Part shown: positions 9,800 through 31,168 of the stretch, piece by piece
How the letters are laid out: each line of letters begins with the position of its first letter
Position numbering within the stretch: position 1 is the first letter of the stretch
Source of the DNA: Arcticibacter pallidicorallinus
Lineage (GTDB): Bacteria; Bacteroidota; Bacteroidia; Sphingobacteriales; Sphingobacteriaceae
DNA length: 64,000 nucleotides
Assembly: GCF_003002875.1 (NCBI RefSeq)
Contig: NZ_PVTH01000013.1
Location: 1 to 64,000 of the forward strand
Direction: 5' to 3'
Translations under genes and position numbers: made by a program
The notes under the pieces: generated by a model
What the model was told of the DNA's origin: nothing
The model's input: the letters and a program-made list of their open reading frames with translations, nothing else
The model's database searches: none

Positions 9800-9809
9800 T
9801 GCAAATAAA

Positions 9810-10169: not shown

Positions 10170-10180
10170 CATTCTATAGC

Positions 10181-10230
10181 AAAATACGAGAGGCTGCGTC
10201 ATTTATAAATGACGCAGCCTCTCGTATTTT
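10181..10230. terminator. Perfect 50-bp palindrome, bidirectional terminator
   Basis: The two 25-nt arms are exact reverse complements, with AAAA at the left end and TTTT at the right. It lies between the convergent IscA-like gene (stop 10169) and lipoprotein gene (stop 10280), so it fits a two-way intrinsic terminator. Confidence 0.85.
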
Positions 10231-10279
10231 ATGCCTGTGGGTATTTATGTGAAGGCCACCATTTCAGGAATCTTGAGCC

Positions 10280-10717: not shown

Positions 10718-10741
10718 CCTATATATGTTTAATTTGATCTG

Positions 10742-10770
10742 ATTCATGAAGGTAATGGAACTTCATGAAT
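10742..10770. promoter_or_regulatory. Operator-like palindrome before the lipoprotein gene
   Basis: ATTCATGAAG (742-751), nine nt, CTTCATGAAT (761-770): the 10-bp arms are perfect. It has no T-run, so it is more likely a protein-binding site or RNA hairpin than a terminator. Confidence 0.5.
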
Positions 10771-10783
10771 TTAACATATCTCA

Positions 10784-10822
10784 ACAAAAAAAATGCGTGA
10801 GCTGAGCAGTTCACGCATTTTT
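10784..10822 (-). terminator. Terminator after susD
   Basis: AAATGCGTGA (10791-10800) pairs with TCACGCATTT (10811-10820). Read leftward the stem is followed by a T-run, 20 nt after the susD stop codon. Confidence 0.8.
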
Positions 10823-10839
10823 AAATAAGTTAACGAATA

Positions 10840-12360: not shown

Positions 12361-12378
12361 GAGATTAGAATAGAAAGG

Positions 12379-15594: not shown

Positions 15595-15917
15595 AGAGGT
15601 AAAATTTGGTTAAAAGATGTAGTAATTATCGGTAAATAATTTTCGTAGCTGTTTTCCTTATTGGTAGCTTTTATAAACATAGCAGATGCATTCCAAAAAT
15701 GCAACCTGTAGTATCCTGCTCGGGTGTTGCAACACTAAATTCTTTGGACGCCGTCAAATCGAGAGAATTCAAAACCAGAAACATATCCTCGTGTTACCTT
15801 TCCATAACTGCTGTCTATCAGATTCTTCAAAGACCTTGCCCCAACAACCGCATCAGCCTGCCTCTGTTATGTGGAAGTTACAGGTACGACGTTTGGAGAT
15901 GCCCAAGTATCAACACT
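15595..15917. other. Divergent intergenic region, susC and sugar dehydrogenase
   Basis: 323 nt between oppositely oriented genes; both promoters should be here, but I find no clear TAnnTTTG box. A small hairpin TGCATT/AATGCA lies at 15687-15703. A reading frame continues upstream of the dehydrogenase from 15699, but its residues do not look like protein of this family. Confidence 0.5.
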
Positions 15918-17486
15918 ATGAAAAACAGACTTCTCTACCTAAGCTCAGTGCTGTCAGCACAGCTCCTGTCCGCAGAAGCACAAACTGAATTACCTTTACA
16001 GGATGCTGCGTTCGAAATCCGCGTCGTAGCGGATAAGCTCAGTGATCCCTGGGAGCTTACCAATGGCCCGGATAATCATCTGTGGGTGACCGAATCGAAA
16101 GGCTATCGCGTCCTGCGAATCGATCCTGCAAGCGGAAAGAAACAGGTACTAGCAGACTTGAACAAAGAAAGAAAATTTCCACGATTTGATAAAGTTGCTA
16201 AAAAAGACGGAGGCATACCCTGGCCACAGGGGGGACTGATGGGGATGGCGCTACACCCATCATTACTCACAGGAAAGCCATTCGTTTACCTCGCATACAT
16301 CTATGACTACAAAGGCAATCCGGGTAATGTAAACGGTGGCCAGAGCGGAGGCGGACACAAGTTTCTGCAGCGTATTGTCAGATATACTTACGATCCACAG
16401 AAAGCGAAGCTTATTCAGCCTGTCATACTCTGTGATACGATCCCTGCAAGCAACGATCATAATGGCGGTAGGCTACTCATTGCACCGGTAAACGACAAGC
16501 ATTATCTATTCTTAAGCATAGGCGACATGGGTGCCGGACAGTTTTCTAACGGCGCGCGTCAGAATAAGGCTCAGAACCAGTATAGCTACGAAGGAAAGGT
16601 CCTTAGATTCAATCTGGAAGCAGACGAAGACGACTTGAAAGAAAACCAGTGGATTCCAAACGACAACCCATTTAACGCATCCGGACAAAATGCAGTATGG
16701 TCGACCGGACACCGGAATCCACAAGGATTAACCTATGCAGAAATTAATGGCGTAGAAAGAATATACGCCGTAGAGCACGGCCCCTATTCTGACGATGAAG
16801 TAAACCTGATTGAAAAGGGCAGCAACTACGGCCATCCCCTTGTAGTTGGATACGACGATGGCAACTATAACGGTCTTGCCGCGTCAGTCTCCGACAAGGA
16901 AGACTATCCCGGCGTTTGGAACACTAGCTATCCCCTGATCAAGGATGAAAAGGCCAATGCCCGTCAGATCGGCGCACCTTACAGAAATCCAGTAACCAGC
17001 TTCTATCCTACAGGCAACAAATTGCTCACCGAGCTCTACCAGAATATAAAAAAGGGCGGAGAAAGGCAGGAATGGCAGTCATTTGCACCGTCGAGCGTGG
17101 AGGTATATCAATCAGAGGCGATTCCTGGCTGGAAAAACTCCTTACTCATCCCTACGCTTAAGGGCTCCCGACTAATAAGAGTCAAGCTGGACAATAACGG
17201 AAAGGTAGCCAACAGCAACGTATATGAATATGTGAGAGGTCAGGTGCGCTACCGCGATGTTGCCGTATCAAACGACGGCTTGAAGCTCTACCTGGCTGTC
17301 GACAGTTCTGCAGTAAGCTCCGGACCGTCAAAAGCCGATCCAATGCAAGTTTCATACAGAGGCTGCATTTTGGAGCTAACCTATAAGTCCGAAACCGCCC
17401 ATTCCTACAATGGCACAAAGGAGAATCCTGCTTCATATCCACCTTCATTAGAAACTTTGCTCAGCTTTGAAAGGAAAAATATGTAA
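15918..17486 (+). CDS. PQQ-dependent sugar dehydrogenase-like (GSDH) protein
   Basis: A 522-residue exported protein: signal peptide MKNRLLYLSSVLSAQLLSAEAQ, then a six-bladed propeller of the glucose/sorbosone dehydrogenase family. Seen motifs are LSDPWELTNGPDNHLWVTE, DHNGGRL, GHRNPQGLTY and the metal/cofactor loop EHGPYSDDEVNLIEKGSNYG. Family members oxidise sugars in the periplasm with pyrroloquinoline quinone. Whether this one binds PQQ is not proven here, and no PQQ synthesis gene is in the window. The start at 15918 is chosen because the signal peptide begins there. It is divergent from susC, hinting at one nutrient. Confidence 0.85.
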   Translation: MKNRLLYLSSVLSAQLLSAEAQTELPLQDAAFEIRVVADKLSDPWELTNGPDNHLWVTESKGYRVLRIDPASGKKQVLADLNKERKFPRFDKVAKKDGGIPWPQGGLMGMALHPSLLTGKPFVYLAYIYDYKGNPGNVNGGQSGGGHKFLQRIVRYTYDPQKAKLIQPVILCDTIPASNDHNGGRLLIAPVNDKHYLFLSIGDMGAGQFSNGARQNKAQNQYSYEGKVLRFNLEADEDDLKENQWIPNDNPFNASGQNAVWSTGHRNPQGLTYAEINGVERIYAVEHGPYSDDEVNLIEKGSNYGHPLVVGYDDGNYNGLAASVSDKEDYPGVWNTSYPLIKDEKANARQIGAPYRNPVTSFYPTGNKLLTELYQNIKKGGERQEWQSFAPSSVEVYQSEAIPGWKNSLLIPTLKGSRLIRVKLDNNGKVANSNVYEYVRGQVRYRDVAVSNDGLKLYLAVDSSAVSSGPSKADPMQVSYRGCILELTYKSETAHSYNGTKENPASYPPSLETLLSFERKNM

Positions 17487-18255: not shown

Positions 18256-19071
18256 ATGAATACAGCACAGCATTCCGGCATGCATCTGGAAAAACCCATC
18301 AGCAGTGGATACGCCTCCGTCAATGATACTCAGGTCTATTACCAAATATACGGTGAGGGTCGACCTATAATTTTATTACACGGTGCTTTTATGACTATTG
18401 AGACGAACTGGGGGGAGCTAATTTCGGAGCTGTCGAAAACAAGGAAAGTAATTGCCCTGGAATTGCAAGGACATGGTCGCACTCCGTTTTCAGATAGGCC
18501 CCTTTCACGCGCTACTTTAGCAAGCGATATTGAAGGCGTAATGGATTACCTGAACATTGACCGGGCCGATGTAGCAGGCTATAGCTTTGGTGGCTCTGTA
18601 GCCTACCAGTTTGCCGTACAGTACCCTGAAAGGTTGAGAAAATTGGCAATTATTTCTTCCGCCTATAAAACAGAAGGCTGGGCACCAGAAACAAACGCAG
18701 CCTTTAAAGCAATGAAGCCTGAATTCTTCTCCAATACCCCCATGCAGACCGCGTATAAAGCAGTAGCACCCGATAAAACAAAGTGGATCCCTTTCCTCGA
18801 AAAGATGATTGCTTTAGCCGGAGAACCTTATAACACAGGAGATGAAAATATCGCCAACATTACCTCTCCCATTCTGTTGATCGCCGGCGACAACGATGGA
18901 CTGAACAAAATAGAGTTGATCAAAACCTACGAATCGATTGCAGGCGCTACGAATCCCGACCCTGGCGTCATGCCTGAATCACAGCTCGCCATCCTACCCG
19001 GGCAGGGACATGTAAGTTTGATGTACCAAACACAAACAATTTTCAGCTATCTGGATAGCTTTTTAGGGTAA
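18256..19071 (+). CDS. Alpha/beta hydrolase
   Basis: A 271-residue alpha/beta-hydrolase fold enzyme. It has the oxyanion-hole block ILLHGAFM, the nucleophile elbow GYSFGGS (Ser in the middle), an acid in LLIAGDNDGLN and the catalytic His in PGQGHVSLM, so the triad is complete. There is no signal peptide, so it acts in the cytosol. The substrate (ester, lactone or epoxide-like) cannot be told. It is the last gene before the CRISPR array, whose distal end is 133 nt downstream. Confidence 0.88.
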   Translation: MNTAQHSGMHLEKPISSGYASVNDTQVYYQIYGEGRPIILLHGAFMTIETNWGELISELSKTRKVIALELQGHGRTPFSDRPLSRATLASDIEGVMDYLNIDRADVAGYSFGGSVAYQFAVQYPERLRKLAIISSAYKTEGWAPETNAAFKAMKPEFFSNTPMQTAYKAVAPDKTKWIPFLEKMIALAGEPYNTGDENIANITSPILLIAGDNDGLNKIELIKTYESIAGATNPDPGVMPESQLAILPGQGHVSLMYQTQTIFSYLDSFLG

Positions 19072-19204
19072 TCCGGAGCGGAAGAGGGGCAGGAACCCCA
19101 CAGCAGAATTGGACGAATTCGTATTAGCATGAAAGAGGGTGTACATTAAATTGCGATCGCCCTCTCTTGTGTTTGCCCCACTAAGTTTCGGCCATGTCAA
19201 ACCC

Positions 19205-19233
19205 GTTTCAATTCTTCGACAGTTCGATCAATG
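19205..19233 (-). repeat. Decayed terminal CRISPR repeat
   Basis: The sequence shares TTTCAATTC and then CGAT-AA with the array repeat, matching roughly two thirds of its positions, and lies one unit (61 nt) before the first clear repeat at 19266. It is best read as a degenerate repeat at the old end of the array. Confidence 0.55.
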
Positions 19234-19265
19234 TTACAAGATTAAACACATCAGCGTCTTATTGC

Positions 19266-20536
19266 ATTTCAATTCCTATATGGTGCGATTAACGGTTTTC
19301 GTACTCACTAAGCATCGTTCCAAAACTTCTATTTCAATTCCTACATGGTGCGATTAAGGACCTCATTCCCTGTTCTTTGCAACATAGGTCTAAGTATTTC
19401 AATTCCTACATGATGCGATTAAGGGAACATCCCATCAGCAGCTCTTAGTGTATTTACTTAATTTCAATTCCTACATGGTGCGATTAAGGGTTAATTTAAC
19501 GAGGTCGCGAGTAAACGCGTGCTGAAATTTCAATTCCTACATGGTGCGATTAAGGGTATATGGGCTTAAACTCTCCCAATATTGCAAACAAATTTCAATT
19601 CCTACATGGTGCGATTAAGGGACAACCCCGCCACGATCATGAAATAATATAGATTATTTCAATTCCTACATGGTGCGATTAAGGGGTGTAATGGGGGCGA
19701 ACGTGGGAGCCACAAGCGGCAATTTCAATTCCTACATGGTGCGATTAAGGGCCCGATAAGCAAATCTTTCAAAGGGTATCCACTTAATTTCAATTCCTAC
19801 ATGGTGCGATTAAGGGTAACAATAAATTCATTTGGTGGATGGAAGGTTAAACTATTTCAATTCCTACATGGTGCGATTAAGGGACAAAGCGCAACAGCAG
19901 CGCCAAATTTATTCTTTATTTCAATTCCTACATGGTGCGATTAAGGGTACCTACAATCTTCATACGTTAGCCCGCCGTCAAACGATTTCAATTCCTACAT
20001 GGTGCGATTAAGGGGCTACGCCCCACCCAGAGGTGTTAAGCTCTTAAAAAATTTCAATTCCTACATGGTGCGATTAAGGGTTAAATCCCATCTGAATAAC
20101 TGGCAAACCTGCGTATTTCAATTCCTACATGGTGCGATTAAGGGTTCCAATGAAAAGTCGAGGCTTAAACCCTCTCCGATTTCAATTCCTACATGGTGCG
20201 ATTAAGGGTGTATACGCATTATTATTTTTTATTTGAGGTTATCAATTTCAATTCCTACATGGTGCGATTAAGGGGGTGATCTATATATCTGTTGGATGTA
20301 ATATGAAAGATTTCAATTCCTACATGGTGCGATTAAGGGAGAGCTGATAATATACGACAAGCATCTTTCCGAGAATTTCAATTCCTACATGGTGCGATTA
20401 AGGGTTTATTCAAAATTTCACAATGACGCCACTTCAAGAGCATTTCAATTCCTACATGGTGCGATTAAGGGGGTCATAGGCGGTTGTGCCTTCCCCATTC
20501 AATTTTATTTCAATTCCTACATGGTGCGATTAAGGG
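19266..20536 (-). CRISPR. Type I-B CRISPR array, 20 repeats and 19 spacers
   Basis: Twenty 30-nt repeats start at 19266, 19331, 19396, 19461, 19527, 19592, 19656, 19722, 19787, 19854, 19918, 19985, 20051, 20115, 20179, 20245, 20310, 20375, 20442 and 20507. On the plus strand they begin ATTTCAATTCC and end GCGATTAAGGG. Spacers are 34-37 nt and all differ. The first three repeats carry one or two substitutions each; the other 17 are identical. Transcribed as the minus strand, each repeat ends in ATTGAAAT, the 8-nt crRNA 5' handle expected after Cas6 cleavage in type I-B. This puts the leader at the cas2 side and the oldest units at the low-coordinate end. Confidence 0.98.
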
Positions 20537-20742
20537 CCGTCGATTTACGTTTGTAAAAGTAGGCTTTTTTGCTAACCAAACAAGTTTCTTAACTCGGATT
20601 TCTAACCAAAGTTAGTCGTTCACGAATAAACAGATTTTATGCTGGAGATCGACAACCTCGTTCAACCACACTAGAGGCTGAATAATGAATGGAAATTAAA
20701 ATTTAACATGTCAAAGAACATTGCTTTCGTCTTCACCGACGA
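20537..20742 (-). promoter_or_regulatory. CRISPR leader
   Basis: These 206 nt between cas2 and the first repeat are AT-rich and contain no gene. On the minus strand TAACTTTG (20614-20607) matches the Bacteroidota -7 box; RNA would start some 65 nt before the first repeat. TTTGGTTAG occurs twice there (20610-20602 and 20580-20572), spaced 30 nt, and could be a site used in spacer acquisition or transcription. Confidence 0.7.
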
Positions 20743-21006
20743 CTAAATGAACGTATTGAGTTCATTCTTTTCATAACCAATGACCTCTTTTTCGAGCCAT
20801 TTTTCTTCTCGACTTTTGAATAGAATAATACTATCTTCATCCGGCCTGATAATAGTTTCAGCCCGACTAATCAGCTCTTTTAATTTCACCGGACTAATCT
20901 CCCCTTCGAAAACAGAGTTCTGGATCCAGTTCAAATATTGCCGGCACAACTTGAGCATCCTCTGCACGCGCCTTTCCTTAATATCGTATACTAAAATTAC
21001 ATACAT
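20743..21006 (-). CDS. cas2: CRISPR adaptation protein Cas2
   Basis: An 87-residue Cas2 with the ferredoxin-like start MYVILVYDIKERRVQRMLKLCRQYLNWIQNSVFEGE. The Asp8 after the first strand is the family's conserved acidic residue. The Cas2 dimer bridges two Cas1 dimers in the spacer integrase. It is the last gene of the leftward cas operon, 22 nt after cas1, and is followed by the leader and array. Confidence 0.97.
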   Translation of the reverse strand: MYVILVYDIKERRVQRMLKLCRQYLNWIQNSVFEGEISPVKLKELISRAETIIRPDEDSIILFKSREEKWLEKEVIGYEKNELNTFI

Positions 21007-21028
21007 AAAATTCTATCTAAAATGAGCA

Positions 21029-22033
21029 TTACCATCTTGCTTTGAACGGTTTGTATTCTTCAATTCCAAGGATATGTTTGCTAAGCTTATAACATTCTAA
21101 CTTGATCAAGTGCTTATAACTTACATTCCTACCAAGTTTCGGGTGTTTAAAGGTCTCATTTATTCGCTCTTCCCAAACTTTAACAAACGCCTTTTTACCT
21201 GCAGGGTTTAACAGGCAGCTGTTCAGATTCCTGACGAAGTCTTTCGACTGAATCTCTTTTTTATTCAACACCCTGAATATGGTGCGATCTACAATGATTG
21301 GCTTGAATATTTCTGCAATATCTAATGCCAGAGAATAGCGACGAAAACCAGGTTCATGCAAAAAACTAATCGTGGGATTAAGCTGCGTATGATAAATCTG
21401 GCCAAGACACAGCGAATAGCACATCATATTTCCGAAAGAGATAAGCGCATTGATTTCATTTTCAGGAGGCTGCTTCTTGCGCCCATCCATCGAGTGGCTG
21501 TTAATGATAGAGTCGAAGGCATGGTAATAAGCCTGGCGGATATTTCCTTCAATCCCCATTAATTCATTTACTGCCAAACACTGTGGAATAAGCTCCGAAT
21601 AACCCTCTATCGATCGCAGCTCTGCACTCACATCCTTTTCCCTGTTAAGATAATAGCGCAGGTTTTTGGACATATTGAAGGCTGCTCCGCTTACGAAATT
21701 CCTGGCTATCTTCATTCGCTTTTTTTTATCTGAGTAGTGCTGAGTTTGTGCAATCTGCATTTTACCGGCAAGCAGATATTCTTTCGGAAAGAAACTTCCG
21801 GTATAATGTTCATAATAATCAAAGAAATGAACAGCAATACCCGACTTCCCAAGGAAATTATATAGGGCGCTATTGGCGTCTAAACTGCCAAAACAGTAAA
21901 AATCAGAGACACCTTCAACAGGTATATACTTAGGCTGCCCCTCTCTCCCCTCCTCATCCACTGGTGTAAATTTCAGAGTATTGTCTTTTCGGCTCATGCG
22001 GCCGGGATTGAACAGGTAATAGGTTTTCTTCAT
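21029..22033 (-). CDS. cas1: CRISPR integrase Cas1 (type I-B)
   Basis: A 334-residue Cas1. The catalytic metal ligands are visible as E162 (in GIEGNIRQAYY), H226 (FLHEPGFRRYSLALDIAE) and E241 of the same block. The N-terminal beta domain starts MKKTYYLFNPGRMSRKDNTL, typical of the Cas1b group that accompanies type I-B systems. With Cas2 it cuts the leader-proximal repeat and inserts protospacers. It sits between cas4 and cas2; the gap to cas4 is 59 nt, the largest inside the operon. Confidence 0.97.
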   Translation of the reverse strand: MKKTYYLFNPGRMSRKDNTLKFTPVDEEGREGQPKYIPVEGVSDFYCFGSLDANSALYNFLGKSGIAVHFFDYYEHYTGSFFPKEYLLAGKMQIAQTQHYSDKKKRMKIARNFVSGAAFNMSKNLRYYLNREKDVSAELRSIEGYSELIPQCLAVNELMGIEGNIRQAYYHAFDSIINSHSMDGRKKQPPENEINALISFGNMMCYSLCLGQIYHTQLNPTISFLHEPGFRRYSLALDIAEIFKPIIVDRTIFRVLNKKEIQSKDFVRNLNSCLLNPAGKKAFVKVWEERINETFKHPKLGRNVSYKHLIKLECYKLSKHILGIEEYKPFKARW

Positions 22034-22092
22034 ACCGTTTGCTTTCAGATCGAATGTATGGGTTGTTTAAACATCTCAATTAAGGTTACAGG

Positions 22093-22602
22093 TCATGCAT
22101 CATCATTAATGTAGCAGAAATCATAATAGCTACAAGTTTTGCAAATGGGCCTATCTAACAGTGGCGGACAATTCTCTGATTTAACAATCTGATCAATACT
22201 CCGTTCCCAGTCTTCTATTTCTAAAATATCTGCAGGAGAAAGGCAAACCCGCTCGGTTTGTCGCATTTTAGGATATTCAATTACCCCGCTAACACCCTCT
22301 ACACCATTGCGCAGAAGTTTATAAATGTAGTATTTCACCTGAGCTATATGTGCCTTTTCTACTTTGTTAGACTTCTTAACTTCATGAACAACTTTGTTCC
22401 TGGCATCATAAAAATCAATTTTTATTCCATCTATCTCTACTTCGGTGTATTTCTCTGAACGGGAAGCATAAGAAGTCTCTCCGATCAGTTTGCCTTCGGC
22501 TACTGTTTCTGAGGTATGTTCCATGCGAATGCCGTTGGCATGCAGCCAAAGTTCGCGCTTACAGACATGGTAAAGGTTGATAAGGGTGGCGTTGATTTGC
22601 AT
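22093..22602 (-). CDS. cas4: CRISPR-associated Cas4 nuclease
   Basis: A 169-residue RecB-like nuclease. Four cysteines for the Fe-S cluster are in place: Cys14 and the C-terminal Cys154, Cys157 and Cys163. Between them lie IDFYD and HEVKKSNK, the acidic and lysine residues of the nuclease motif. Cas4 trims pre-spacers and sets PAM choice and orientation before Cas1-Cas2 integration. It starts 6 nt after cas3. Confidence 0.95.
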   Translation of the reverse strand: MQINATLINLYHVCKRELWLHANGIRMEHTSETVAEGKLIGETSYASRSEKYTEVEIDGIKIDFYDARNKVVHEVKKSNKVEKAHIAQVKYYIYKLLRNGVEGVSGVIEYPKMRQTERVCLSPADILEIEDWERSIDQIVKSENCPPLLDRPICKTCSYYDFCYINDDA

Positions 22603-22608
22603 AGCTTG

Positions 22609-25356
22609 CTAGATAAAGAAGGAATCACTAAAGGCTTTTGTATTGAGTCCGGCTTCCAAAGAATAAGGCCTACCATCGCTTCTTTCCTCATCCCAGTGTG
22701 AGAAATAAACATAGCCATATTCCTCGCGCCCAAAACCCTCCTGAATCTTTTTCACATCAGAAGAATAACTGATCAATGAGAAACAAAATTTTGACAGGAT
22801 ACTTTGCAAATGCTTAAAACGCGTTTTATCCTCAATGCTGAATCCCTGGGTTCGGTTATGAATGACCTCCTTATAAGCCTCCCAAACTAATTTACCATTA
22901 ACTTCAGCTTCGCCAAAATAGGCGTTCAGCCTACTCAATAAATCTAGATCGCATTTCGAAAATATAGCCTCAGTTGTCTCCTTTACCGTTATTTTCACAG
23001 GCAATGTAAGTGGCACAAATACCGAAACATTATCCTGATCAATAATCCTGAATTTTTTGTCGACGTCCTTATAGTTAAGTTTTGCTATGGAGGATTGATA
23101 GGAGGACAAGTTATCAGCGTAATTTCTATTATTTGACCTTATTATTTTGCTGATAACCTGATTGTAGAGATAGCCAAAATCTTTCTCTTTTAAGATTCTC
23201 TCATAGTCAGATCTGCCGATGTTTTCACGTGTTATTTTAAATCGCAGATCTTTATGATGAAGAGCTTTTGCATCATTATAATTAAAAAGATAAACTTCGC
23301 AGCCCGCTTTATTGGCATTTCTGTTGACACGACCGGCCAACTGCTCATCCGAATCAATCAAAGACCTATTTTTAAAACCCAGGTCCATATCAATATCAAC
23401 GCCAGCTTCAACAACCTGTGTTGTTATGAGAAGGATGTTTAATGTCTTATCTGATAATTTAAGTGTATTTATAATCTCTTTTCTCCTGGCTTCTAAAACT
23501 GTCCCGGATAATAGCAAGACCTGATCAAAGGGATGAGATAAATTCATAACAGCCTCGTAAAATTCTGAAGCTGACTTCTTAAAAATAAATTCGATTATAG
23601 TTCTTACCGATCCTGTTTCCGACTTCTCAATCCGGTATTCTTCAGATTTCCGAATTACAACTTCTGCTAATTCATCCAACGATATTTCCGCTTCAAAATA
23701 ATCAAACCGGAAATTCACCCGCTCACTGAAATTGGGATTTCGAAGATAGCGTGAAGCATTTGGAAGGAGTGATATGTATGTATTTTTGTAGTCCGAAAGC
23801 AGATCAATATCGCCGATCTTAGGCAAGGTAGCCGACATCAAGATAAAGCGGATATTAAAAAAACGGGAGTATTCAGAAATAAAGTACATAAGCTTGTCCC
23901 ATATTTCCGGATTATAAGACTGTAATTCGTCAACAACAACCACCGAATTCGCCAGCCGGTGAAGCAAATAGTTACTCTCCTTTTGATTCGTCTTAAGGAT
24001 ATCGAAAAATCGGATGTGAGATAATACCGTTACCGGATAAAAAGCAAAAAGTCTACTGATAAAATCCTTTTTAGCATCTCCGAAATAACCATCCGCATCA
24101 GCCTCACCGATATTACTGAACCCTGCTTTGGAATGGAGTTCAGCCAGCTCATTCTCTTCGAATCCAAAGGATGCTTTTAATGCTTGACAGGTTTGCGTAA
24201 TTAAACTGGTAAACGGAAAAACATAATATACTTTGTTGATTTCTGGATTCGCTCTCAACAGCTCAGATACCGCAATCATCGATAAATTTGTTTTCCCACC
24301 ACCTGTAGGCGCCTCAATATAAAACAAACGTTCCTTAAGGTTCTGACGCAGAGTCTGAATAAGTTCTGCTGCCATTTTTCGCCGGATAAGATTCAAATTG
24401 CTACTTGATTTTTCCATCGGAATAGCAAAGTGGTCAGCCTGTTCGGCATCCTTATATATTGCCTTATTGTGTTGATAGTTTTGTAAGTGATCAATAAGCT
24501 TCTCAACGCGTTCCCTGCTTTTGAATACTCCAAAATCATAGGTCGGACAGTCATTCACGTACTCATGCGTGGCAAGATAATCGGACGCTGTAAGTAGAGA
24601 AAAATTGAGTTTTAAAAGAGTAAAAAGAGGGAATCCAGACTTTAAAATATTATCTATCTGTGCTAAATAATTTCTTTCAAGGTTCAATGGTACAACTTCG
24701 GCAAGCCTTGGATCAATCCCCAATTGATAAATGCTGAGATATTTTTTTAGCTCACTTTCGTTGTTCCCAAAATTTATCTCCTGTTTCAGTGGCTCAGAAA
24801 GAGTTGGAGAGTGATGTTTGAAAATGCTATAAGAAAGGACTATCGAAAACGCATCTACAAACCGCTTCTCAATCGGAAGAAGAGAATTATCAGATTGGTG
24901 CTTTTGAATCTGTTTGAGAATAAAGAGATAGGCCCCTAATGTGGAATGATTGGAACCAAGTGGGTTTCCTCTAATTAGTTTGAATAGAGGATTATTCATT
25001 TTCAGAGGATCAGCCTGAAAGTTTATATTCACCTTCCCGAAATCATGAAAACATATCGTATAGGCAAATGCCTCCTTGAGATAGTTTCCTACAATCTCGA
25101 TGCTAATCTGGGGTATTTTATTCAGTTTTATTACTTCATGTATCAGGGCATCGATTGAATTATCCAAAAAATGCTCTTCAACGAGAATCGTGAAATAAGA
25201 ATTGACGAGACTGATGTGCTCATTCAACGTTTCAGATAACTTAGAGGATTTTGTATGCGCCAAATACTTTGATACATCAGGCAGCCATTCTGAAAGATCA
25301 GGAATGGCTGCCATTATCTGTCTGGTGCTTTTAAAGGAGCTGGACATATTTGTCAA
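22609..25356 (-). CDS. cas3: CRISPR-associated helicase-nuclease Cas3
   Basis: A 915-residue fusion. The N-terminal HD nuclease shows H47, the FHDFGK block (HD at 104-105), H137 and the HH pair 181-182. The superfamily 2 helicase follows: Walker A APTGGGKT (349-356), DELQ at 476-479 as the DEAD-type box, MSAT near 507-510, and QLAGRVNRNA as motif VI. It is recruited to Cascade-bound DNA, unwinds it and degrades it. Its 5' end overlaps cas5 by 26 nt from the first ATG; a second ATG at 25347 would still overlap. Confidence 0.97.
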   Translation of the reverse strand: MTNMSSSFKSTRQIMAAIPDLSEWLPDVSKYLAHTKSSKLSETLNEHISLVNSYFTILVEEHFLDNSIDALIHEVIKLNKIPQISIEIVGNYLKEAFAYTICFHDFGKVNINFQADPLKMNNPLFKLIRGNPLGSNHSTLGAYLFILKQIQKHQSDNSLLPIEKRFVDAFSIVLSYSIFKHHSPTLSEPLKQEINFGNNESELKKYLSIYQLGIDPRLAEVVPLNLERNYLAQIDNILKSGFPLFTLLKLNFSLLTASDYLATHEYVNDCPTYDFGVFKSRERVEKLIDHLQNYQHNKAIYKDAEQADHFAIPMEKSSSNLNLIRRKMAAELIQTLRQNLKERLFYIEAPTGGGKTNLSMIAVSELLRANPEINKVYYVFPFTSLITQTCQALKASFGFEENELAELHSKAGFSNIGEADADGYFGDAKKDFISRLFAFYPVTVLSHIRFFDILKTNQKESNYLLHRLANSVVVVDELQSYNPEIWDKLMYFISEYSRFFNIRFILMSATLPKIGDIDLLSDYKNTYISLLPNASRYLRNPNFSERVNFRFDYFEAEISLDELAEVVIRKSEEYRIEKSETGSVRTIIEFIFKKSASEFYEAVMNLSHPFDQVLLLSGTVLEARRKEIINTLKLSDKTLNILLITTQVVEAGVDIDMDLGFKNRSLIDSDEQLAGRVNRNANKAGCEVYLFNYNDAKALHHKDLRFKITRENIGRSDYERILKEKDFGYLYNQVISKIIRSNNRNYADNLSSYQSSIAKLNYKDVDKKFRIIDQDNVSVFVPLTLPVKITVKETTEAIFSKCDLDLLSRLNAYFGEAEVNGKLVWEAYKEVIHNRTQGFSIEDKTRFKHLQSILSKFCFSLISYSSDVKKIQEGFGREEYGYVYFSHWDEERSDGRPYSLEAGLNTKAFSDSFFI

Positions 25357-26128
25357 GATCTCTTAGGTAAAACAAACCAGGCAAGGTAATTCCTTCAGCA
25401 GTTAACAGATTAGAATAAGCAACTGGCTCTATTTTGTACTGGCTCAATATATTGTCAAAGCTTGTTGGTATCCTTTCAAAATACATGAATGTTTCAGGGC
25501 CTGGTTTTAGTTCGAACGGATTATATTCCTCCTCAACCGGTTCATTTAAATTGTGTTTGACAATAAAGCTCTTTCTGAAGGAGCCTGCAAATTCCTTTCC
25601 TGCAGAAGTTCTATTTATCCTTTCAAATTCATACTGCCTGAAACTATTCTCCCCCTCTTTGTCAATCCATGAAGCCTGATATTCGTTCTTACCTAGATAC
25701 GGAATATATTCTGCATTGCCATCCTGTAGATATCCATACAACTTCTTGTGCTCTAGCTCCTGAATGTTTAATAGCAGATAACACCTATACGCCGGCTTAA
25801 TAAGCATACTTTCCTCTATCAGCAAATTTCCATCCTGGTTAGCGTAACCAACCGTATTGGTATATTTTACTGAGGTCCTTTGAAAATTCCCTTTTTCGGT
25901 CCCGAGCGGTTCTATGCCTATGAGCAAATCCTTTAGTTTTTGATAGTATTCGGGCATCTCGCCCTTTTTTTCATACCCCTTTAATCCGATGATTGCTCCT
26001 AAGACTCCTAACAAGGCTGGTTTATGCAACAAATTATAAGAAAGGAGTAAGCCATCATTATAATCAGGTTTCTTAAAAAAGCCAAAATCTGCCCGCAAAT
26101 CAAACGAGACTAATTTTTGCGAATCCAT
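25331..26128 (-). CDS. cas5: Cascade subunit Cas5 (type I-B)
   Basis: A 265-residue Cas5. The N-terminal RAMP strand FDLRADFGFFKKPDYNDGLLLSYNLLHKPALLGVLGAIIGLKG is typical of type I-B Cas5, including the Gly-rich turn. Cas5 caps the crRNA 5' handle and contacts Cas8 in Cascade. It begins 1 nt after the cas7 stop codon and overlaps cas3, so the three genes are probably translationally coupled. Confidence 0.93.
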   Translation of the reverse strand: MDSQKLVSFDLRADFGFFKKPDYNDGLLLSYNLLHKPALLGVLGAIIGLKGYEKKGEMPEYYQKLKDLLIGIEPLGTEKGNFQRTSVKYTNTVGYANQDGNLLIEESMLIKPAYRCYLLLNIQELEHKKLYGYLQDGNAEYIPYLGKNEYQASWIDKEGENSFRQYEFERINRTSAGKEFAGSFRKSFIVKHNLNEPVEEEYNPFELKPGPETFMYFERIPTSFDNILSQYKIEPVAYSNLLTAEGITLPGLFYLRDLDKYVQLL

Positions 26129-26129
26129 T

Positions 26130-27062
26130 TTAATTCAAGTCAAAGATAATACTTCCTTCAGGACGATTAATTACGCTTGTTGCAGCCTCATTGAGATAGA
26201 TCTCAATAGTCTTGATCTCCTTTTTGATGTTTTCTTTTGATAGAATAGCGGCTATTTTACTCAGGTCGACTTCTTTGTTTTCATTCACAGAAATCAGGTC
26301 CACGAAAGATGGCAAAACCAATTTAGAACCTTTGTTTAGCTCCACCCAAAGCAGCAATTCATTTTCAACTCCTGCTTTCGACGATGAATCGTAAAACGTT
26401 GCTCCATTGCGCAAAGCTTCTTTCAGCTTGCTAATATCATCATTTGTTAAACCTTCATTACCCACCGCTTTGTTCATATCCTCCAGATTTCGTGGATTAA
26501 CTGAAAGGTGATGAACATAATGCCCTTCCTTCAATTTAAACTGTGTTCCCAGTGTCGTTTGCATAGAATCAGTGCTCTTCTCATTTGAGTTTCTGAAAGG
26601 AGAAGATATCTGCTCGGAATAAATGACGTTCTCGACAAATTTGTTTACACCATGAGTAAACTGAACCGTGCCATGCAATGAAAGATTTGCTCCCTCTTCG
26701 GCAAATGTCCCTCCGAATAGTCTCACATCAATGCATTTTAAAAGGTTTTCGAGCACTATTTTCCTAGCCTTAACAGGTTCCTTTTTATCCACCTTGGGAA
26801 ATTCGCCAAAGTTCTTTACATATGTTTCTTTCAAACTTCTTGGCTGCATCTCATCACTAATGCTTTTGAAATAAAATACTTTTTCTGAAGGATATTGTTT
26901 AACTAGGTAGTTACGGACCGTATATTTTAACGCTTTGTCTGTAGCATAAACGGTTCCGTCAGATAAAGTACGCGGCTGATGGGTGAAGTCCGCATTGTAG
27001 TTAGCATTGATGGCTTTTACAATTACACAGCCAAATACACGATTGTTAAATGGATTGCTCAT
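26130..27062 (-). CDS. cas7: Cascade backbone subunit Cas7 (Csh2-type)
   Basis: A 310-residue Cas7. The start NNRVFGCVIVKAINANYNADFTHQPRTL and the middle LKCIDVRLFGGTFAEEG-NLSLHGTVQFTHG are the hallmarks of the Cst2/DevR/Csh2 group that forms the crRNA-binding backbone of type I-B Cascade, several copies per complex. It lies 18 nt after cas8b and 1 nt before cas5. Confidence 0.95.
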   Translation of the reverse strand: MSNPFNNRVFGCVIVKAINANYNADFTHQPRTLSDGTVYATDKALKYTVRNYLVKQYPSEKVFYFKSISDEMQPRSLKETYVKNFGEFPKVDKKEPVKARKIVLENLLKCIDVRLFGGTFAEEGANLSLHGTVQFTHGVNKFVENVIYSEQISSPFRNSNEKSTDSMQTTLGTQFKLKEGHYVHHLSVNPRNLEDMNKAVGNEGLTNDDISKLKEALRNGATFYDSSSKAGVENELLLWVELNKGSKLVLPSFVDLISVNENKEVDLSKIAAILSKENIKKEIKTIEIYLNEAATSVINRPEGSIIFDLN

Positions 27063-27080
27063 GAGTGATGGGTTTTAGGG

Positions 27081-27485
27081 TTATTCTTCTGTTGTTTCTG
27101 ATTGTTGTTCGTCGTCTTTCTTATTCCCAAAAAGCTGATTGTCAGAGAAGAATCCAGCAAGTATCGTTGGAATAAAATCCCGCAAATTTGCTTTGGTTTC
27201 ATAGTCCATAATTTCCGCAAATGGCGTTCTGAAGTTTTTCGAGAAAACTTCATGCTTGTAGAGATCAAATAATCTGGCTACTGCTTTGTTCATTTCTTGT
27301 GATTTCACCTGTTGCAGAAAAGCTTCAAGCCGTTGATAACTTCTGTCGGCTGTTCTACTTTTAGAAAAGAGGTAATAGACAACCTGTCCGATTGTAAAAG
27401 CATACTCGTCATCAGTTGTTATCCCTGCCTGACTTTGTGTGAGTTGCTGCATAAATGCCCGATGGGCTTGTAGTTTACTCGCCAT
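27081..27485 (-). CDS. Candidate internal Cas11b small subunit within cas8b
   Basis: In the cas8b frame an ATG at 27485 (MASKLQAH) opens 134 residues that end at the cas8b stop. Type I-B, I-C and I-D systems are known to produce Cas11 by internal initiation in the large-subunit gene, and no separate cas11 is present in this operon. I see no strong ribosome-binding site before this ATG, so this is inference. Confidence 0.35.
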   Translation of the reverse strand: MASKLQAHRAFMQQLTQSQAGITTDDEYAFTIGQVVYYLFSKSRTADRSYQRLEAFLQQVKSQEMNKAVARLFDLYKHEVFSKNFRTPFAEIMDYETKANLRDFIPTILAGFFSDNQLFGNKKDDEQQSETTEE

Positions 27486-28952
27486 AGTAATATTGGGGTC
27501 TATATGTTTTTGGTTGAATTTTTCAGAAAGGCTGAACCATATATTGAGCTTTTGCCTGATATTAAGATTCTGGGAATGCTGATTGCCTTTGACCTCGTCC
27601 AGGCGAATATCGTCTAATACAACAGTCTGCATCAGACTATCGAAAACTTCAGCAGAGATAGCCTGCCGTTTTGATTTATAAATAAAATCATAGAACGCCT
27701 TTCGATGTGTCATTACCATCAGGTAAGTGTTGGCCGACTTACAGTATTTAGAATCTATTTCACCAAAGTATTTCCGTTGAAAATCACCGCTCTTCGTTTT
27801 CGTTATCAAAGCGTTATTCAGAACGGGAATAAGAACATGATATTCAAGATCAAAAACATTTTCTAAAGAACGGCGGTACTGAGCATTGAATAAATCTTCA
27901 ATGACCCAGTTTTCATTATCTCGTCCTTTTAATTCGTAGTCAAACTTGCTTACAAAATCAAAGTCTTTAATCTCTCCTTGTTGATAAAAGAGTAAATAAT
28001 AATTCTCAAACTCCCGCTTATGGTCGCTATAAAGCGTTTCAATAATTTGTTTATAACTAATCTTTTCGCCATCGTCTGCGTTTTTTTTGAATAAGGCGAT
28101 AGACTTACCCTTTAATTCATCATCGTAGATGAAGAGAGGAAGGGGCCTTGGCAGTATCCCCTTGCCTAATAAAGCCTTGAATTCAAATAAGGCTCTTGCT
28201 TCTCCTGATGTAATTCTTCCCGCAATATCAAAAGTTGCTGTTTGATGTAACAAAAACGGTTTTTTTGTTGGGAACCCATTAAAGAAATCGCTGGTGCCGT
28301 ATTTTACTTCATCAATGATTTCATCATACTCATTCGTATTAAAAAGCTTATCTGCCAGATACTTTGAATTCGCTTTTTCATAACTTTCAATTGGTTCATC
28401 CAGATAAAAAATTACATAATCGCTGTCCTTCAGTTCTGCATACTCGGGTATCCGATCAAGCCACTGATGAAAGTTCTGTTCTCCGTTTAAAGCCTGTTTA
28501 AAAATCTCCAACCGCTGCCTTTGATTTTCATCGTCGAGCAAGTCAAAGCCTTTGTTGAAATATGCCGAAATGCGCTCATAAACCTGCGACTTGTTGTCTT
28601 TCTTATTTAAGAGATATTTTTCTCCATTTATCAGATTCTCCCTCTTTAGAGCAATGCTGTAAGGTGAACAGGAGTGAATCGCTTTAACTGGCAGATCAAA
28701 ACACTTATTTGTGTTAACACACCAGGTTAGAGTAGTTAAGGTTGCAAAGTACTGAAGGAGCTTTACCTTTTCAGGTTCCTGATCTTTCTTTCGCGTAAAG
28801 GCCCAGCCGATCAATGAATTCTCATCTGAGAAGACCCTTTCATCCTCTTTCTGAATCCGTAAGAGAATGTGCAAACCTTCCTTCGGTTTCAGGCCCAACG
28901 TCTTAAAATCAGTATCGAGCGTGTCAATGAATTGAGCGATTTCTTTTATCAT
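27081..28952 (-). CDS. cas8b: Cascade large subunit Cas8b (Csh1/TM1802-type)
   Basis: A 623-residue protein in the position of the large subunit. It fits the Csh1/TM1802 family by length, by gene order and by blocks such as LGLKPKEGLHILLRI and GKGILPRPLPLFIYDDEL. Cas8 reads the PAM and starts R-loop formation. Family members are very divergent, so the call rests partly on context. The last about 134 residues (from an internal ATG at 27485) are helical and could be made separately as the small subunit Cas11. It follows cas6 by 27 nt. Confidence 0.88.
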   Translation of the reverse strand: MIKEIAQFIDTLDTDFKTLGLKPKEGLHILLRIQKEDERVFSDENSLIGWAFTRKKDQEPEKVKLLQYFATLTTLTWCVNTNKCFDLPVKAIHSCSPYSIALKRENLINGEKYLLNKKDNKSQVYERISAYFNKGFDLLDDENQRQRLEIFKQALNGEQNFHQWLDRIPEYAELKDSDYVIFYLDEPIESYEKANSKYLADKLFNTNEYDEIIDEVKYGTSDFFNGFPTKKPFLLHQTATFDIAGRITSGEARALFEFKALLGKGILPRPLPLFIYDDELKGKSIALFKKNADDGEKISYKQIIETLYSDHKREFENYYLLFYQQGEIKDFDFVSKFDYELKGRDNENWVIEDLFNAQYRRSLENVFDLEYHVLIPVLNNALITKTKSGDFQRKYFGEIDSKYCKSANTYLMVMTHRKAFYDFIYKSKRQAISAEVFDSLMQTVVLDDIRLDEVKGNQHSQNLNIRQKLNIWFSLSEKFNQKHIDPNITMASKLQAHRAFMQQLTQSQAGITTDDEYAFTIGQVVYYLFSKSRTADRSYQRLEAFLQQVKSQEMNKAVARLFDLYKHEVFSKNFRTPFAEIMDYETKANLRDFIPTILAGFFSDNQLFGNKKDDEQQSETTEE

Positions 28953-28979
28953 GTGATACGTTTTAGGTTTATAATCTCA

Positions 28980-29768
28980 TTAGCTATTCTTTACTTCCAC
29001 ACTCCCAAATCCCATCCCATTCAACATTCCCAATCCACAATCCATCAGGATATTAATCACCTTCCCCGTCCCCTTTACCACCAGTTCAAAGCCATAAAAC
29101 CCGCGTACCTTACTCTCTTCTTGCGTATTCTCCTTAATGGTAACTAATCGTGATCTTAATCTATCTGGAAAGAGATTCAAGCCGACTTCCAACCTATCTG
29201 AAGTTGGATCGCCGCCGATGGCCCGGATCTTCTCCCTTAAATTATTCTTCAGGAGCGGAATGAAATTCGCGTCTAATGGAGACAGGTAATTATAATACCC
29301 CCGTTCATTTTTCTCGCCAACTACTAATGGTGATATGGGCTTTAGTATGACAGTATGTAAAGAATCGTCAATGGGAGTAGGATTCGGCAGTAAAGAGACC
29401 TGCTGAACAACGAACCTCGCCGTCGCCCCGACGCCGCCAATGGAGACTTCCTGATTGATAAAAACGCCTTTAATCAGATGCTCGGCAAACTTCGGCATAT
29501 AGCAGCTAAGCTGGAAACTAAGTTCCTTGCTTTGCAGTCTGAGCGAATTATGTTCTATGCAAAAGTCCCCTTTTAAGTTAGAATAGGTGAATAGTTTGAA
29601 ATGCTTATTGCTTTCGATCTGGCTATATCCTCTTTCATGTAAAAAGCTGGCGTATTGCTCATCAGCTAAAGCCAGCTTTTTATAAATTACTCCTGAAAGT
29701 GCATACTGATAGGAGTAAGGCAGGAACGTTTTGCCCGGATTAGGAGATAAGGTAATTAGGAAACGCAT
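28980..29768 (-). CDS. cas6: CRISPR RNA endonuclease Cas6
   Basis: A 262-residue Cas6. The probable general-base His44 lies in FLHERGY near the end of the first RAMP domain, and the C-terminal glycine-rich loop GLGMLNGMGFGSVEV is the classic signature of the family. It cuts the array transcript within each repeat, leaving the ATTGAAAT handle. It is the first gene of the cas operon; a weak promoter candidate (CAAGTATA on the plus strand, 29831-29838) lies 60 nt upstream. Confidence 0.95.
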   Translation of the reverse strand: MRFLITLSPNPGKTFLPYSYQYALSGVIYKKLALADEQYASFLHERGYSQIESNKHFKLFTYSNLKGDFCIEHNSLRLQSKELSFQLSCYMPKFAEHLIKGVFINQEVSIGGVGATARFVVQQVSLLPNPTPIDDSLHTVILKPISPLVVGEKNERGYYNYLSPLDANFIPLLKNNLREKIRAIGGDPTSDRLEVGLNLFPDRLRSRLVTIKENTQEESKVRGFYGFELVVKGTGKVINILMDCGLGMLNGMGFGSVEVKNS

Positions 29769-29972
29769 AAGGTTTATAAAAAGGCAATATAGAGGTTATA
29801 TATAACTAAACAAAAAGGCTTTCCGGAATTCAAGTATAAATTTCTAAGGGGGCAAGGGTTTGCTAAACCCAAGGTTACGAGTAAGAGAAACTTGAATAAT
29901 TGGCTCGATATAAAAAGAAAAAAGCCTGCAAATTGAAAGATTTGCAGGCTTTTTTCTTTTTATAAAATTCAG
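29769..29972. other. Upstream region of the cas operon
   Basis: Holds the presumed cas promoter and the tRNA terminator. On the minus strand TATACTTG (29838-29831) is one mismatch from TAnnTTTG. A GGGTTT/AAACCC hairpin-like motif lies just before it (29860-29875). Neither is strong. Confidence 0.4.
29913..29960. terminator. Terminator after tRNA-Ser
   Basis: AGCCTGCAAA and TTTGCAGGCT form a 10-bp stem around TTGAAAGA, with a long A-tract on the left and T-tract on the right. It can stop both the leftward tRNA transcript and anything coming from the other side. Confidence 0.85.
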
Positions 29973-30060
29973 CGGAGAGGGAGGGATTCGAACCCTCGAT
30001 ACCCTTTTGAGGTATACACACTTTCCAGGCGTGCTCTTTCGACCACTCAGACACCTCTCC
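29973..30060 (-). tRNA. tRNA-Ser (anticodon GGA)
   Basis: The minus strand folds as an 88-nt cloverleaf. GGAGAGG at the 5' end pairs with CCTCTCC at the 3' end; the anticodon loop reads CTGGAAA, giving GGA. A long variable arm and the T-loop GGTTCGAATCC follow. The long variable arm and the anticodon both say serine (UCC/UCU codons). CCA is not encoded. It borders the CRISPR locus. Confidence 0.95.
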
Positions 30061-30072
30061 TTTAGTGGGACG

Positions 30073-30104
30073 CAAAACTAAGAATTTCTATCAGAACTAC
30101 CCAA
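30073..30104 (-). promoter_or_regulatory. Promoter of tRNA-Ser
   Basis: Minus-strand TAGTTTTG (30080-30073) matches TAnnTTTG, with TTG (30104-30102) 21 nt upstream. RNA would start a few nt before the tRNA 5' end at 30060. Confidence 0.65.
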
Positions 30105-30121
30105 GCTTTGCAAAATAAATC

Positions 30122-31168
30122 TTAAAATACCGTTTTAGACGCTACAGGCGACGATTTGCTCAACTCCCCACGCAAATTAGTTTCCAACAAGTGAGTGATT
30201 CGCTCGGCAGTAAAGCCCCGTCCCAACAGGAACATCAGCTTCGTAACCGCAGCTTCGTAACTCATATCAAAGCCACTTGCAACACCCATATCCTTCAGCG
30301 GGCGACTGGTTTCATATCTTCCCAGTTCCACCGTTCCGACCTTACATTGCGAAATGTCCAGAATAACCTTTCCATTATCAATAGCCGACTGCAGGCAGTT
30401 CAGGAACCATTCATCCGTAGAAGTATTGCCAGCACCAAAGGTTTCCAGGATAATCGCACTCGTTGCCGAATTTACAATCGCTTTGACTGTCTCCTGACTG
30501 ATACCTGGATACAATTTCAATACAGCAATGGAGTTATTCAGCTTCTTATGTACCCTAAAGATACACTCATCACATTTGCGTATGCTCGAATCATTATATC
30601 GTAGATGAACGCCAGCCTCTGCAAGCACAGGGTAATTAGGCGACCTGAAAGCTTCAAATTTCGCTGAGTTATATTTAAAAGCCCGGTTTCCCCTGAAAAG
30701 CTGAAAGTCGAAATAGATACAAACCTCCGGCACACGTGCCTTGCCATTCTGCTTCGCAGAAGCGATCTCAAGAGCCGTTATCAGGTTTTCCTTGGCGTCT
30801 GTACGAATCTCCCCTATTGGGAGCTGAGAACCCGTGAAAATTACCGGCTTATTTAAACCCTCCAACATGAAGCTCAAGGCAGAAGCCGTAAACGCCATCG
30901 TGTCAGATCCATGAAGAACTACAAAGCCGTCATACAAAGCGTAATTGCGCTCTATAATATCCGCAAGCTCTATCCAGACCTCCGGTGTCATGTTCGAAGA
31001 GTCAATGATCTCAGCGAAAGAGTGAACCGTTATCTCATAATTCAGACGCCTTAATTCCGGAACATTTTCAGTAATTAAATTGAAGTCAAGAGGCATTAAC
31101 GTACCCGTAACCTTGTCCTGAACCATGCCTATGGTTCCCCCGGTATAAATAATGAGTACCTTTGTCAT
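30122..31168 (-). CDS. ansA: Type I L-asparaginase
   Basis: A 348-residue asparaginase with both active-site loops: TGGTIG (9-14, first catalytic Thr) and HGSDTMAFTASAL (Thr90, with Asp89). The block PVIFTGSQLPIGEIRTDAKENLI is also characteristic. No signal peptide, so a cytosolic type I enzyme that converts asparagine to aspartate and ammonia. It follows tatD by 50 nt on the same strand and is probably co-transcribed with it. Confidence 0.92.
   Translation of the reverse strand: MTKVLIIYTGGTIGMVQDKVTGTLMPLDFNLITENVPELRRLNYEITVHSFAEIIDSSNMTPEVWIELADIIERNYALYDGFVVLHGSDTMAFTASALSFMLEGLNKPVIFTGSQLPIGEIRTDAKENLITALEIASAKQNGKARVPEVCIYFDFQLFRGNRAFKYNSAKFEAFRSPNYPVLAEAGVHLRYNDSSIRKCDECIFRVHKKLNNSIAVLKLYPGISQETVKAIVNSATSAIILETFGAGNTSTDEWFLNCLQSAIDNGKVILDISQCKVGTVELGRYETSRPLKDMGVASGFDMSYEAAVTKLMFLLGRGFTAERITHLLETNLRGELSKSSPVASKTVF

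Follow-up and report, generated by a model that had tools for sequence, protein, structure and literature searches.

A conserved inverted repeat in the leader of a type I-B CRISPR array of Arcticibacter pallidicorallinus, a candidate docking site for the spacer integrase

A type I-B clustered regularly interspaced short palindromic repeats (CRISPR)-Cas locus occupies positions 19,205 to 29,768 of the first 64,000 nucleotides (nt) of contig NZ_PVTH01000013.1 from the Bacteroidota species Arcticibacter pallidicorallinus (assembly GCF_003002875.1); these 64,000 nt are the whole stretch of DNA analyzed here and are referred to as the window. The leader of the array carries an inverted repeat, the dyad, with a consensus of approximately GTYGTCGA, a gap holding a fixed ATT(G), and TCGACRAC, which was recognized by lining up the leaders of relatives side by side. 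The dyad is (i) conserved, (ii) fixed in position, (iii) helically phased, (iv) associated with arrays, (v) present at arrays without detected cas genes, and (vi) recurrent in haloarchaea.

Organization of the locus

Eight cas genes lie on the minus strand in the order cas6-cas8b-cas7-cas5-cas3-cas4-cas1-cas2, all open and reading toward the array. The features of the locus, all on the minus strand, are the following:

28980–29768, minus: cas6 (262 amino acids), with PADLOC, NCBIfam and Pfam profile matches
27081–28952, minus: cas8b (623 amino acids), PADLOC PDLC01507 over residues 1–615 (E 1.3e-99)
26130–27062, minus: cas7b (310 amino acids), PADLOC Cas7b (E 1.7e-47), Pfam Cas_Cas7 above cut-off
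25331–26128, minus: cas5b (265 amino acids), PADLOC Cas5b (E 1.5e-25), generic NCBI Cas5 domain above cut-off
22609–25356, minus: cas3 (915 amino acids, TTG start), HD nuclease plus helicase
22093–22602, minus: cas4 (169 amino acids), with PADLOC, NCBIfam and Pfam profile matches
21029–22033, minus: cas1 (334 amino acids), type I-B Cas1b by the NCBI model
20743–21006, minus: cas2 (87 amino acids), with PADLOC, NCBIfam and Pfam profile matches
20537–20742, minus: leader, from the cas2 stop to repeat 1, by sequence comparison with relatives
20611–20656, minus: leader dyad (inverted repeat), with arm 1 GTTGTCGA at 20649–20656, ATT at 20625–20627 and arm 2 CGACTAAC at 20611–20618
20554–20561, minus: weak −7-like candidate promoter site TACTTTTA, not an exact TAnnTTTG, picked out by eye
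19266–20536, minus: CRISPR array of 20 repeats of 30 nt and 19 spacers, the predicted newest spacer at 20472–20506 and the oldest at 19296–19330
19205–19234, minus: strongly decayed 21st repeat copy at the leader-distal end, with 20 of 30 matches and 61 nt from the neighboring repeat

With a Cas8b, an HD-helicase Cas3, Cas5b and Cas7b, and with Cas6, Cas4, Cas1b and Cas2 in the same operon, the window system is a complete, ordinary type I-B CRISPR-Cas system of the Cas1b lineage and the Cas8b PDLC01507 variant. It shares with that type the gene order, Cas1b, Cas4, Cas6, the predicted ATTGAAAT handle and an array after cas2, and it differs in nothing essential, although the I-B models of NCBI are only distantly matched by its Cas8, Cas5 and Cas7. 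Cas1b scores 446.8 bits against the NCBI cut-off of 304.1, Cas3 exceeds the cut-offs of both NCBIfam cas3_core and cas3_HD, and the NCBI models for Cas2, Cas3, Cas4 and Cas6 are satisfied. The NCBI I-B cut-offs are not reached by Cas5 (88.4 versus 97 bits) or Cas7 (47.8 versus 171.55 bits); Cas5 has no Pfam match, and Cas8 matches nothing in Pfam or NCBIfam, PADLOC alone recognizing Cas8b. This Cas8b is sparse nearby: counting the window's own genome, 1 of 6 genomes in the genus has it, as do 4 of 399 in the family.

Candidate catalytic residues are at least 97% invariant among aligned relatives (80 Cas1, 80 Cas4, 27 Cas3, and 50 Cas6 sequences). They comprise E162, H226 and D238 of Cas1; H104, D105, D476 and E477 of Cas3; E74, K76, C14, C154, C157 and C163 of Cas4; and H44 of Cas6, all of them positions regarded as catalytic in these families. 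Judged by sequence, the window system is predicted to be active.

Between 19266 and 20536 the repeats recur every 64–67 nt, with spacers of 34–37 nt. Seventeen of the 20 repeats are perfect, and the three copies at the low-coordinate end carry 2, 1 and 1 mismatches. The best repeat-like match elsewhere in the window reaches 19 of 30 positions, twice and on the plus strand, and the repeat, allowing up to 3 mismatches, is absent from the rest of the 4.12-Mb genome. Repeat numbers vary, with 13 in the related locus L016, 20 in the window and more than 100 in some relatives. Read on the minus strand, the repeat ends 3′ in ATTGAAAT, as it does in many relatives, comparison with which also identifies the cas2-adjoining end of the array as the leader side; decay at the cas-distal end is likewise seen in several of them (e.g., L016, L026, L027, and L049). 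Because the leader stands at the cas2 end and the decayed copies at the opposite end, the newest spacer should be the one at 20472–20506 and the oldest that at 19296–19330, which the decayed copy at 19205 should predate.

An earlier note on this DNA had described a complete type I-B locus with intact genes, a 20-repeat array, visible catalytic residues in Cas1, Cas3, Cas4 and Cas6, and a polarity on which the ATTGAAAT repeat end, the leader beside cas2 and the decayed far repeats agree, together with the spacer ages that follow from it. Eight open genes with profile matches to the I-B set, the 20 copies counted, the leader side and decayed array ends of relatives, and the invariance of the residues bear all of this out. 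The note also located the leader correctly but left the conserved dyad inside it unmentioned.

A conserved dyad in the leader

A scan for Cas1 relatives across 84,980 species genomes yielded 463 stretches, from which 80 loci with identities of 67–84% were kept. The named organisms are all Bacteroidota except for one record labelled Calditrichota, which has just 277 nt after cas1. For 71 of the 80 relatives, one script finds an array no more than 2.3 kb past the cas1 stop, in 61 of them at 463–581 nt; the window array lies 492 nt from the cas1 stop. The 71 readable leaders discussed below are those of 70 relatives plus the window. Ten of the 80 loci fall outside this set, namely L063, with a run of N in its leader, and nine without an array by the script, although the array of L020 is visible in a separate repeat view. 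The dyad is still present in seven of these ten (L020, L038, L062, L063, L071, L084, and L091) and absent from L034, L053 and L075, which are short contig ends.

When a position matrix is applied with each leader left out in turn, the best motif window lies 107–121 nt ahead of repeat 1 in 71 of 71 readable leaders, and the core letters T1, G3, T4, C5, A28, G38, A39 and C40 are kept in 69–71 of them. The ungapped matrix fits 69 leaders; the window and L087 have one extra base between the arms and score below zero, although they are correctly placed. The window dyad begins 120 base pairs (bp) ahead of repeat 1. In 31 of the 71 Bacteroidota leaders an inner ATTG precedes the second GAC by exactly 10 nt, and in 50 an ATT does so. 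Elsewhere in the loci, only 20 windows in 2.5 million positions score at least 12 bits, and these consist of 7 sites behind cas1 that had been missed in, or dropped from, the leader count and 13 leader sites read on the opposite strand.

Alignments A1 and A2 hold 65 and 64 dyad copies, respectively, rather than all 71 leaders. In A1, 13 pairs are formed with 76.9% of cells paired, and the inner stem has 94 double-change cells compared with 39.5 in shuffles. Sliding the partner abolishes the double-change excess; therefore, the dyad arms covary.

Several smaller elements were seen in the same leaders. The motif TTTGGTTAG occurs twice in the window leader between the dyad and the array, at 20602–20610 and 20572–20580 on the minus strand and 30 bp apart; visual inspection of the nearest relative, L014, shows no such pair. 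Thirteen of the 71 leaders, mostly from Chitinophagaceae and Flavobacteriia (L029, L030, L031, L035, L036, L042, L045, L047, L049, L058, L061, L074, and L090), have a third half-site, GTYGTC, 15–17 nt ahead of repeat 1, and in L056 it lies at −12. Visual inspection also shows, in many of these leaders, a small AAGCC..GGCTT hairpin and T run lying between the promoter and the array.

Distance to the first repeat

Distances were tabulated for 81 leaders, no two identical, in each of which 4 or more repeats are resolved; 13 of the 94 unique leaders fell short of this and were left out. The dyad starts 97 bp (4 leaders), 106–109 bp (22) or 117–121 bp (55) from the leader-repeat junction, and the ranges 98–105 and 110–116 bp are empty. 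The three classes are 11 bp apart, that is, in helical-turn steps, and the dyad thus keeps the fixed phase of a phased leader motif. On a Cas1 tree of 75 sequences (6 of the 81 lacking a usable Cas1), the distance classes need 5 changes, a number to which the tree tool also forces the 106–109 class alone. These changes suggest that a shift of about one helical turn happened several times and that other shifts were not retained. Assuming that steps of 3–25 bp are equally likely, the chance that five independent changes would all measure 9–13 bp is roughly (5/23)^5, or about 5 in 10,000.

Genome scans and arrays without cas genes

Two covariance models were used for scanning: R1, with the window in its training set, and R2, with the window left out, built from 64 sequences of Bacteroidota only. 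In the window genome R1 finds the leader only (E 1.6e-7; next place E 6.7), and for R2 the leader is still the best place (E 7.2e-4; next E 1.9). R1 matches at E ≤0.001 occur in 22 and 12 genomes in two overlapping draws of 395 genomes; 14 candidates were scored per genome in these phylum and class scans, so that genomes lacking a match prove nothing. An array stands at the expected distance for 26 of the 31 distinct R1 places.

Genomes G630, G581 and G402 have two R1 matches each, one near cas genes and the other near an array for which the 14–16 kb fetched contain no gene resembling the window Cas proteins. Four further loci (L138, L139, L140, and L141) also have the dyad at arrays without window-like Cas genes. 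The dyad co-occurs with four Cas8b families: PDLC01507, PDLC01204 with Cas11b, PDLC01511, and PDLC01387. In G402, locus L129 contains a cas6-cas1-cas2-cas4 cluster at 9836–16553 with no nearby gene similar to the window's interference genes; neighboring open reading frames of 121, 171, 560 and 893 amino acids have no PADLOC match.

The dyad beyond the initial set

Named plasmid records with Cas1 relatives supplied 23 further loci, one of them without an array after cas2 and one of type I-D. Of 22 leaders, 12 have GTCG-N29-31-CGAC no farther than 200 nt from repeat 1, whereas the expectation calculated from other parts of these loci is 0.92. Near versions are present in 4 of the 10 misses, those of Hymenobacter (L164, R1 E 4e-7), Salarchaeum (L168), Natrinema (L169), and Halocatena (L173). 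R1 itself gives significant leader matches for two of 11 plasmid loci, each from Bacteroidota; Flammeovirga matches it with E 1e-6. The type I-D leader of Thiothrix, the one leader of another subtype that served as a control, has no dyad by these tests and is among the other six misses, with those of Salinibacter, Thermus, Arcobacter, Sulfurospirillum and Haloarcula sinaiiensis.

Among haloarchaeal I-B leaders, 12 of 13 have a dyad of 37–40 bp starting 91–95 bp before the array, a count made by a looser pattern and without a chance control. Two of these 12 open with ATCGA instead of GTCGA, and 9 have ATTG placed exactly 10 nt ahead of the second GAC. As an independent check, R2 was applied to the 13 haloarchaeal loci and picked out 9 separate places, 7 of which are the leader dyad, with E values of 9e-5 for L176 and 0.03–2 for L165, L166, L167, L170, L173 and L175. 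Farther from the array, at 170 and 175, GTCG-N30-CGAC is found in Lactobacillus intestinalis and in an unannotated Acetoanaerobium record, and R2 matches upstream of both Lactobacillus arrays (E 0.0045 and 0.28).

Other inverted repeats were noticed by eye in two of the loci. In L156 (Salinibacter ruber pSR66) both leaders have one of similar size, CGTCACCC ... GGGTGACG and CGTCGCCC ... GGGTGACG, which is possibly a divergent version of the dyad. In L177 (phiCDKH02), the leader upstream of 1136 holds a different, wide inverted repeat, TGCAGTGA ... TCACTGCA.

Proposed role in spacer integration

The near-constant arm spacing, the whole-turn distance to repeat 1, the attachment to arrays and the occurrence in hosts with unrelated promoters suggest a component of the adaptation machinery as the reader of the dyad. 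The best explanation, to which we assign a probability of about 0.65, is that the dyad is a docking site for the spacer integrase in a complete type I-B system; we infer the identity of the binding protein, the folding of the leader and the part played in integration. In a type I-B system the CRISPR RNAs would carry an 8-nt repeat-derived 5′ handle, for which the repeat end ATTGAAAT is the candidate. By what is known of these families, the array would be transcribed from the minus strand, Cas6 cleavage of each repeat would yield this handle, a complex of Cas8b, Cas7 and Cas5 would locate targets for Cas3 to degrade, and Cas4-Cas1-Cas2 would insert new spacers at repeat 1. In the most likely mechanism, the Cas1-Cas2 integrase, which has two-fold symmetry and may be assisted by Cas4 or a protein that bends DNA, would contact both dyad arms on a folded leader, and this contact would place the leader-repeat junction in the active site, giving leader-specific insertion. 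The window genome has one match to the HU/IHF (integration host factor) family. Archaea are not known to have IHF.

A broader version of this proposal, which we advance tentatively and at somewhat less than even odds, is that many bacterial and archaeal type I-B systems share a docking signal of about 38 bp, GTCG-N21-ATTG-N5-CGAC, placed in Bacteroidota at whole turns of 97, 108 and 119 bp and read by Cas1-Cas2 (Cas4) rather than by IHF. If so, the dyad would mark arrays that are still able to learn, including distant ones free of cas genes; it could help to separate live from dead arrays and to orient I-B arrays by sequence alone. The motif geometry common to Bacteroidota and haloarchaea is directly testable in an existing model, Haloarcula hispanica. 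Should the function prove to be another, such as transcription, the dyad would still be a conserved, unexplained part of I-B leaders.

A number of observations weigh against a docking site or against its wide distribution. The window dyad is irregular, with one extra base, several mismatched inner pairs and a negative ungapped-matrix score, and it gives no RNA fold signal (z about −0.2); it may work less well or be a tolerated variant. A covarying inner stem would be expected of an RNA hairpin or terminator as well, and some of the distance-class changes fall among long branches of unsure placement. Five of the 31 R1 places have no array (L115, L118, L119, L149, and L151); the contig of L119 ends 163 nt past the match, and for L119 and L151, where the first array search began away from the match, a whole-locus repeat scan likewise found none. 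By pattern, no dyad appears in the leaders of Salinibacter, Thermus, Arcobacter, Sulfurospirillum and Haloarcula sinaiiensis, and three Clostridioides difficile phage arrays, one clear and two degenerate, lack a GTCG-N26-34-CGAC dyad. In haloarchaea, most single R2 matches are weak, 6 of the 13 leaders are not listed by R2, no R2 match is listed for the H. hispanica and H. mediterranei leaders, and the GTCG/CGAC pattern is not rare in such GC-rich DNA (up to 67 of 292 control windows); the H. hispanica leader reaches only E 4.4 with R1.

Alternative explanations

Candidate Bacteroidota promoters lie downstream of the dyad. An exact TAnnTTTG, which we take to be the Bacteroidota −7 promoter motif, occurs between dyad and repeat in 35 of 81 leaders compared with 4.3 expected from shuffles, each being a consensus match and not a mapped start site. 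Such an arrangement, and a helical phasing that is typical of regulator sites too, would suit a binding site for a transcription regulator, for Cascade or for some Cas protein, acting on the array promoter and having no part in integration. In the 120-bp class, however, the promoter motif sits at three places (about −58, −51, and −25) while the dyad-repeat distance is constant; its 34 positions there are −56 to −59 (15), −50/−51 (6), −23 to −26 (9), and elsewhere (4). The same dyad core also recurs in haloarchaea, whose promoters are unrelated, and promoter control is accordingly regarded as unlikely.

The dyad could instead serve the cas operon as an intrinsic terminator, with an RNA hairpin followed by a U run; we consider this highly doubtful. 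To its credit are the covarying inner stem, a T run after many dyad copies, and a cas2-to-dyad distance of 87–107 nt in 66 of 70 loci of the first set. T.G exceeds C.A at pairs 2/41 (18 to 0) and 8/35 (8 to 0), whereas inner pairs 9 to 12 show no such excess, leaving the wobble test mixed. A tie to the 3′ end of the cas operon is not what is found: the dyad occurs at arrays with no gene similar to the window Cas proteins in the 7–18 kb fetched, at an array whose cas genes are oppositely directed (L145), and in L129 behind cas4, not cas2, as the last gene ahead of it; in L133 and L135, it begins a mere 2 nt past the cas2 stop. The outer arms and inner ATT are moreover conserved in sequence, and the dyad-repeat distance is quantized. 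In view of the arrays without detected cas genes, a terminator as the sole function was rejected; these arrays and the quantized distances also led us to set aside an RNA hairpin in general, which the covariation and the T runs had suggested. The Rfam scan of 18800–30400 gave no match in the leader up to E 1.

That the window system is ordinary but no longer adapting, its dyad drifted and its array a frozen record, is quite improbable. The irregular dyad, the 20 repeats against more than 100 in some relatives, and the failure to find a protospacer would fit. Against it, every cas gene has an open reading frame, the first 17 repeats counted from the leader carry no mismatch, and the dyad has kept the cores of its two arms and its 120-bp spacing. 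A GTCG-to-CGAC length of 39 is also seen in 4 of the 12 dyads from haloarchaea, there are relatives with shorter arrays (e.g., the 13 repeats of L016), and missing protospacers are common for unsampled phages.

Comparison with known leader systems

As a docking site for the integrase, the dyad would join other leader elements with a role in adaptation. Among these are subtype-specific leader motifs whose helical phase is reported to matter for adaptation; phased motifs are the subject of Santiago-Frangos et al. 2021, and a catalogue of motifs that of Buyukyoruk et al. 2025.

In type I-F systems, Cas2 contacts conserved inverted repeats of the leader while IHF folds it (PMC12259127). The likeness to the I-B dyad lies in two inverted leader half-sites that a symmetric integrase could grip, and the I-B dyad would be the analogue of these repeats; the two differ in subtype, and the core of the I-B dyad is also found in archaea. 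In the type I-A system of Sulfolobus islandicus, Cas1 binds a single-stranded stem-loop without a sequence requirement in the last 40 bp of the leader (PMC9456107). This too is a leader structure read by the integrase, but it lies within the last 40 bp, whereas the I-B dyad is about 50–121 bp away and conserved in sequence. The same paper notes that few species encode IHF and argues that other signals are needed where it is missing (PMC9456107).

Within type I-B, the leaders of C. difficile contain two conserved inverted-repeat motifs upstream of every array of a strain (PMC8406132). Like the dyad, they are leader inverted repeats, but the fetched phage arrays do not show the GTCG/CGAC dyad, and an identity of the two elements was therefore rejected. 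The TGCAGTGA/TCACTGCA pair of L177 is perhaps one of these motifs (PMC8406132). In H. hispanica, inverted repeats within the first repeat matter, together with the leader end (Van Orden et al., PMC5382924). No description of the I-B dyad was found in the literature searched, a scope outside which Santiago-Frangos 2021, Buyukyoruk 2025 and Wang 2016 lie, and one may already be in print; the dyad belongs to a known kind of element but was not found described there for I-B with such geometry.

Spacer targets and neighboring features

A search of the spacers against phage and plasmid sequences, which the earlier note had suggested as a check, produced no convincing target. The whole array, compared with 50,697 phage and 72,556 plasmid records, gives chance-level matches only (best E 1 and 4), and exact 21–27-nt pieces of 8 of the 19 spacers have 0 matches each in viral contigs. 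Self-targets in the window genome are not convincing either, the best partial match having E 0.73, and no protospacer adjacent motif is derivable.

In L164 (Hymenobacter sp. BRD67 plasmid NZ_CP053907.1), PLSDB reports a "BES-1 beta-lactamase" at 12074–12232; this looks like a false annotation because it is located within the CRISPR array (about 9471–15485).

Upstream of the window's cas operon, a tRNA gene lies at 29973–30060 on the minus strand, about 200 bp from cas6 and on the same strand, with an Rfam score of 56.4 bits against a gathering score of 29. It is the sole Rfam family above its gathering score in 18800–30400, all other matches being below theirs; these include hairpin-like matches at 29909–29964, between the tRNA and cas6. 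The cas locus may have been inserted behind this tRNA gene.

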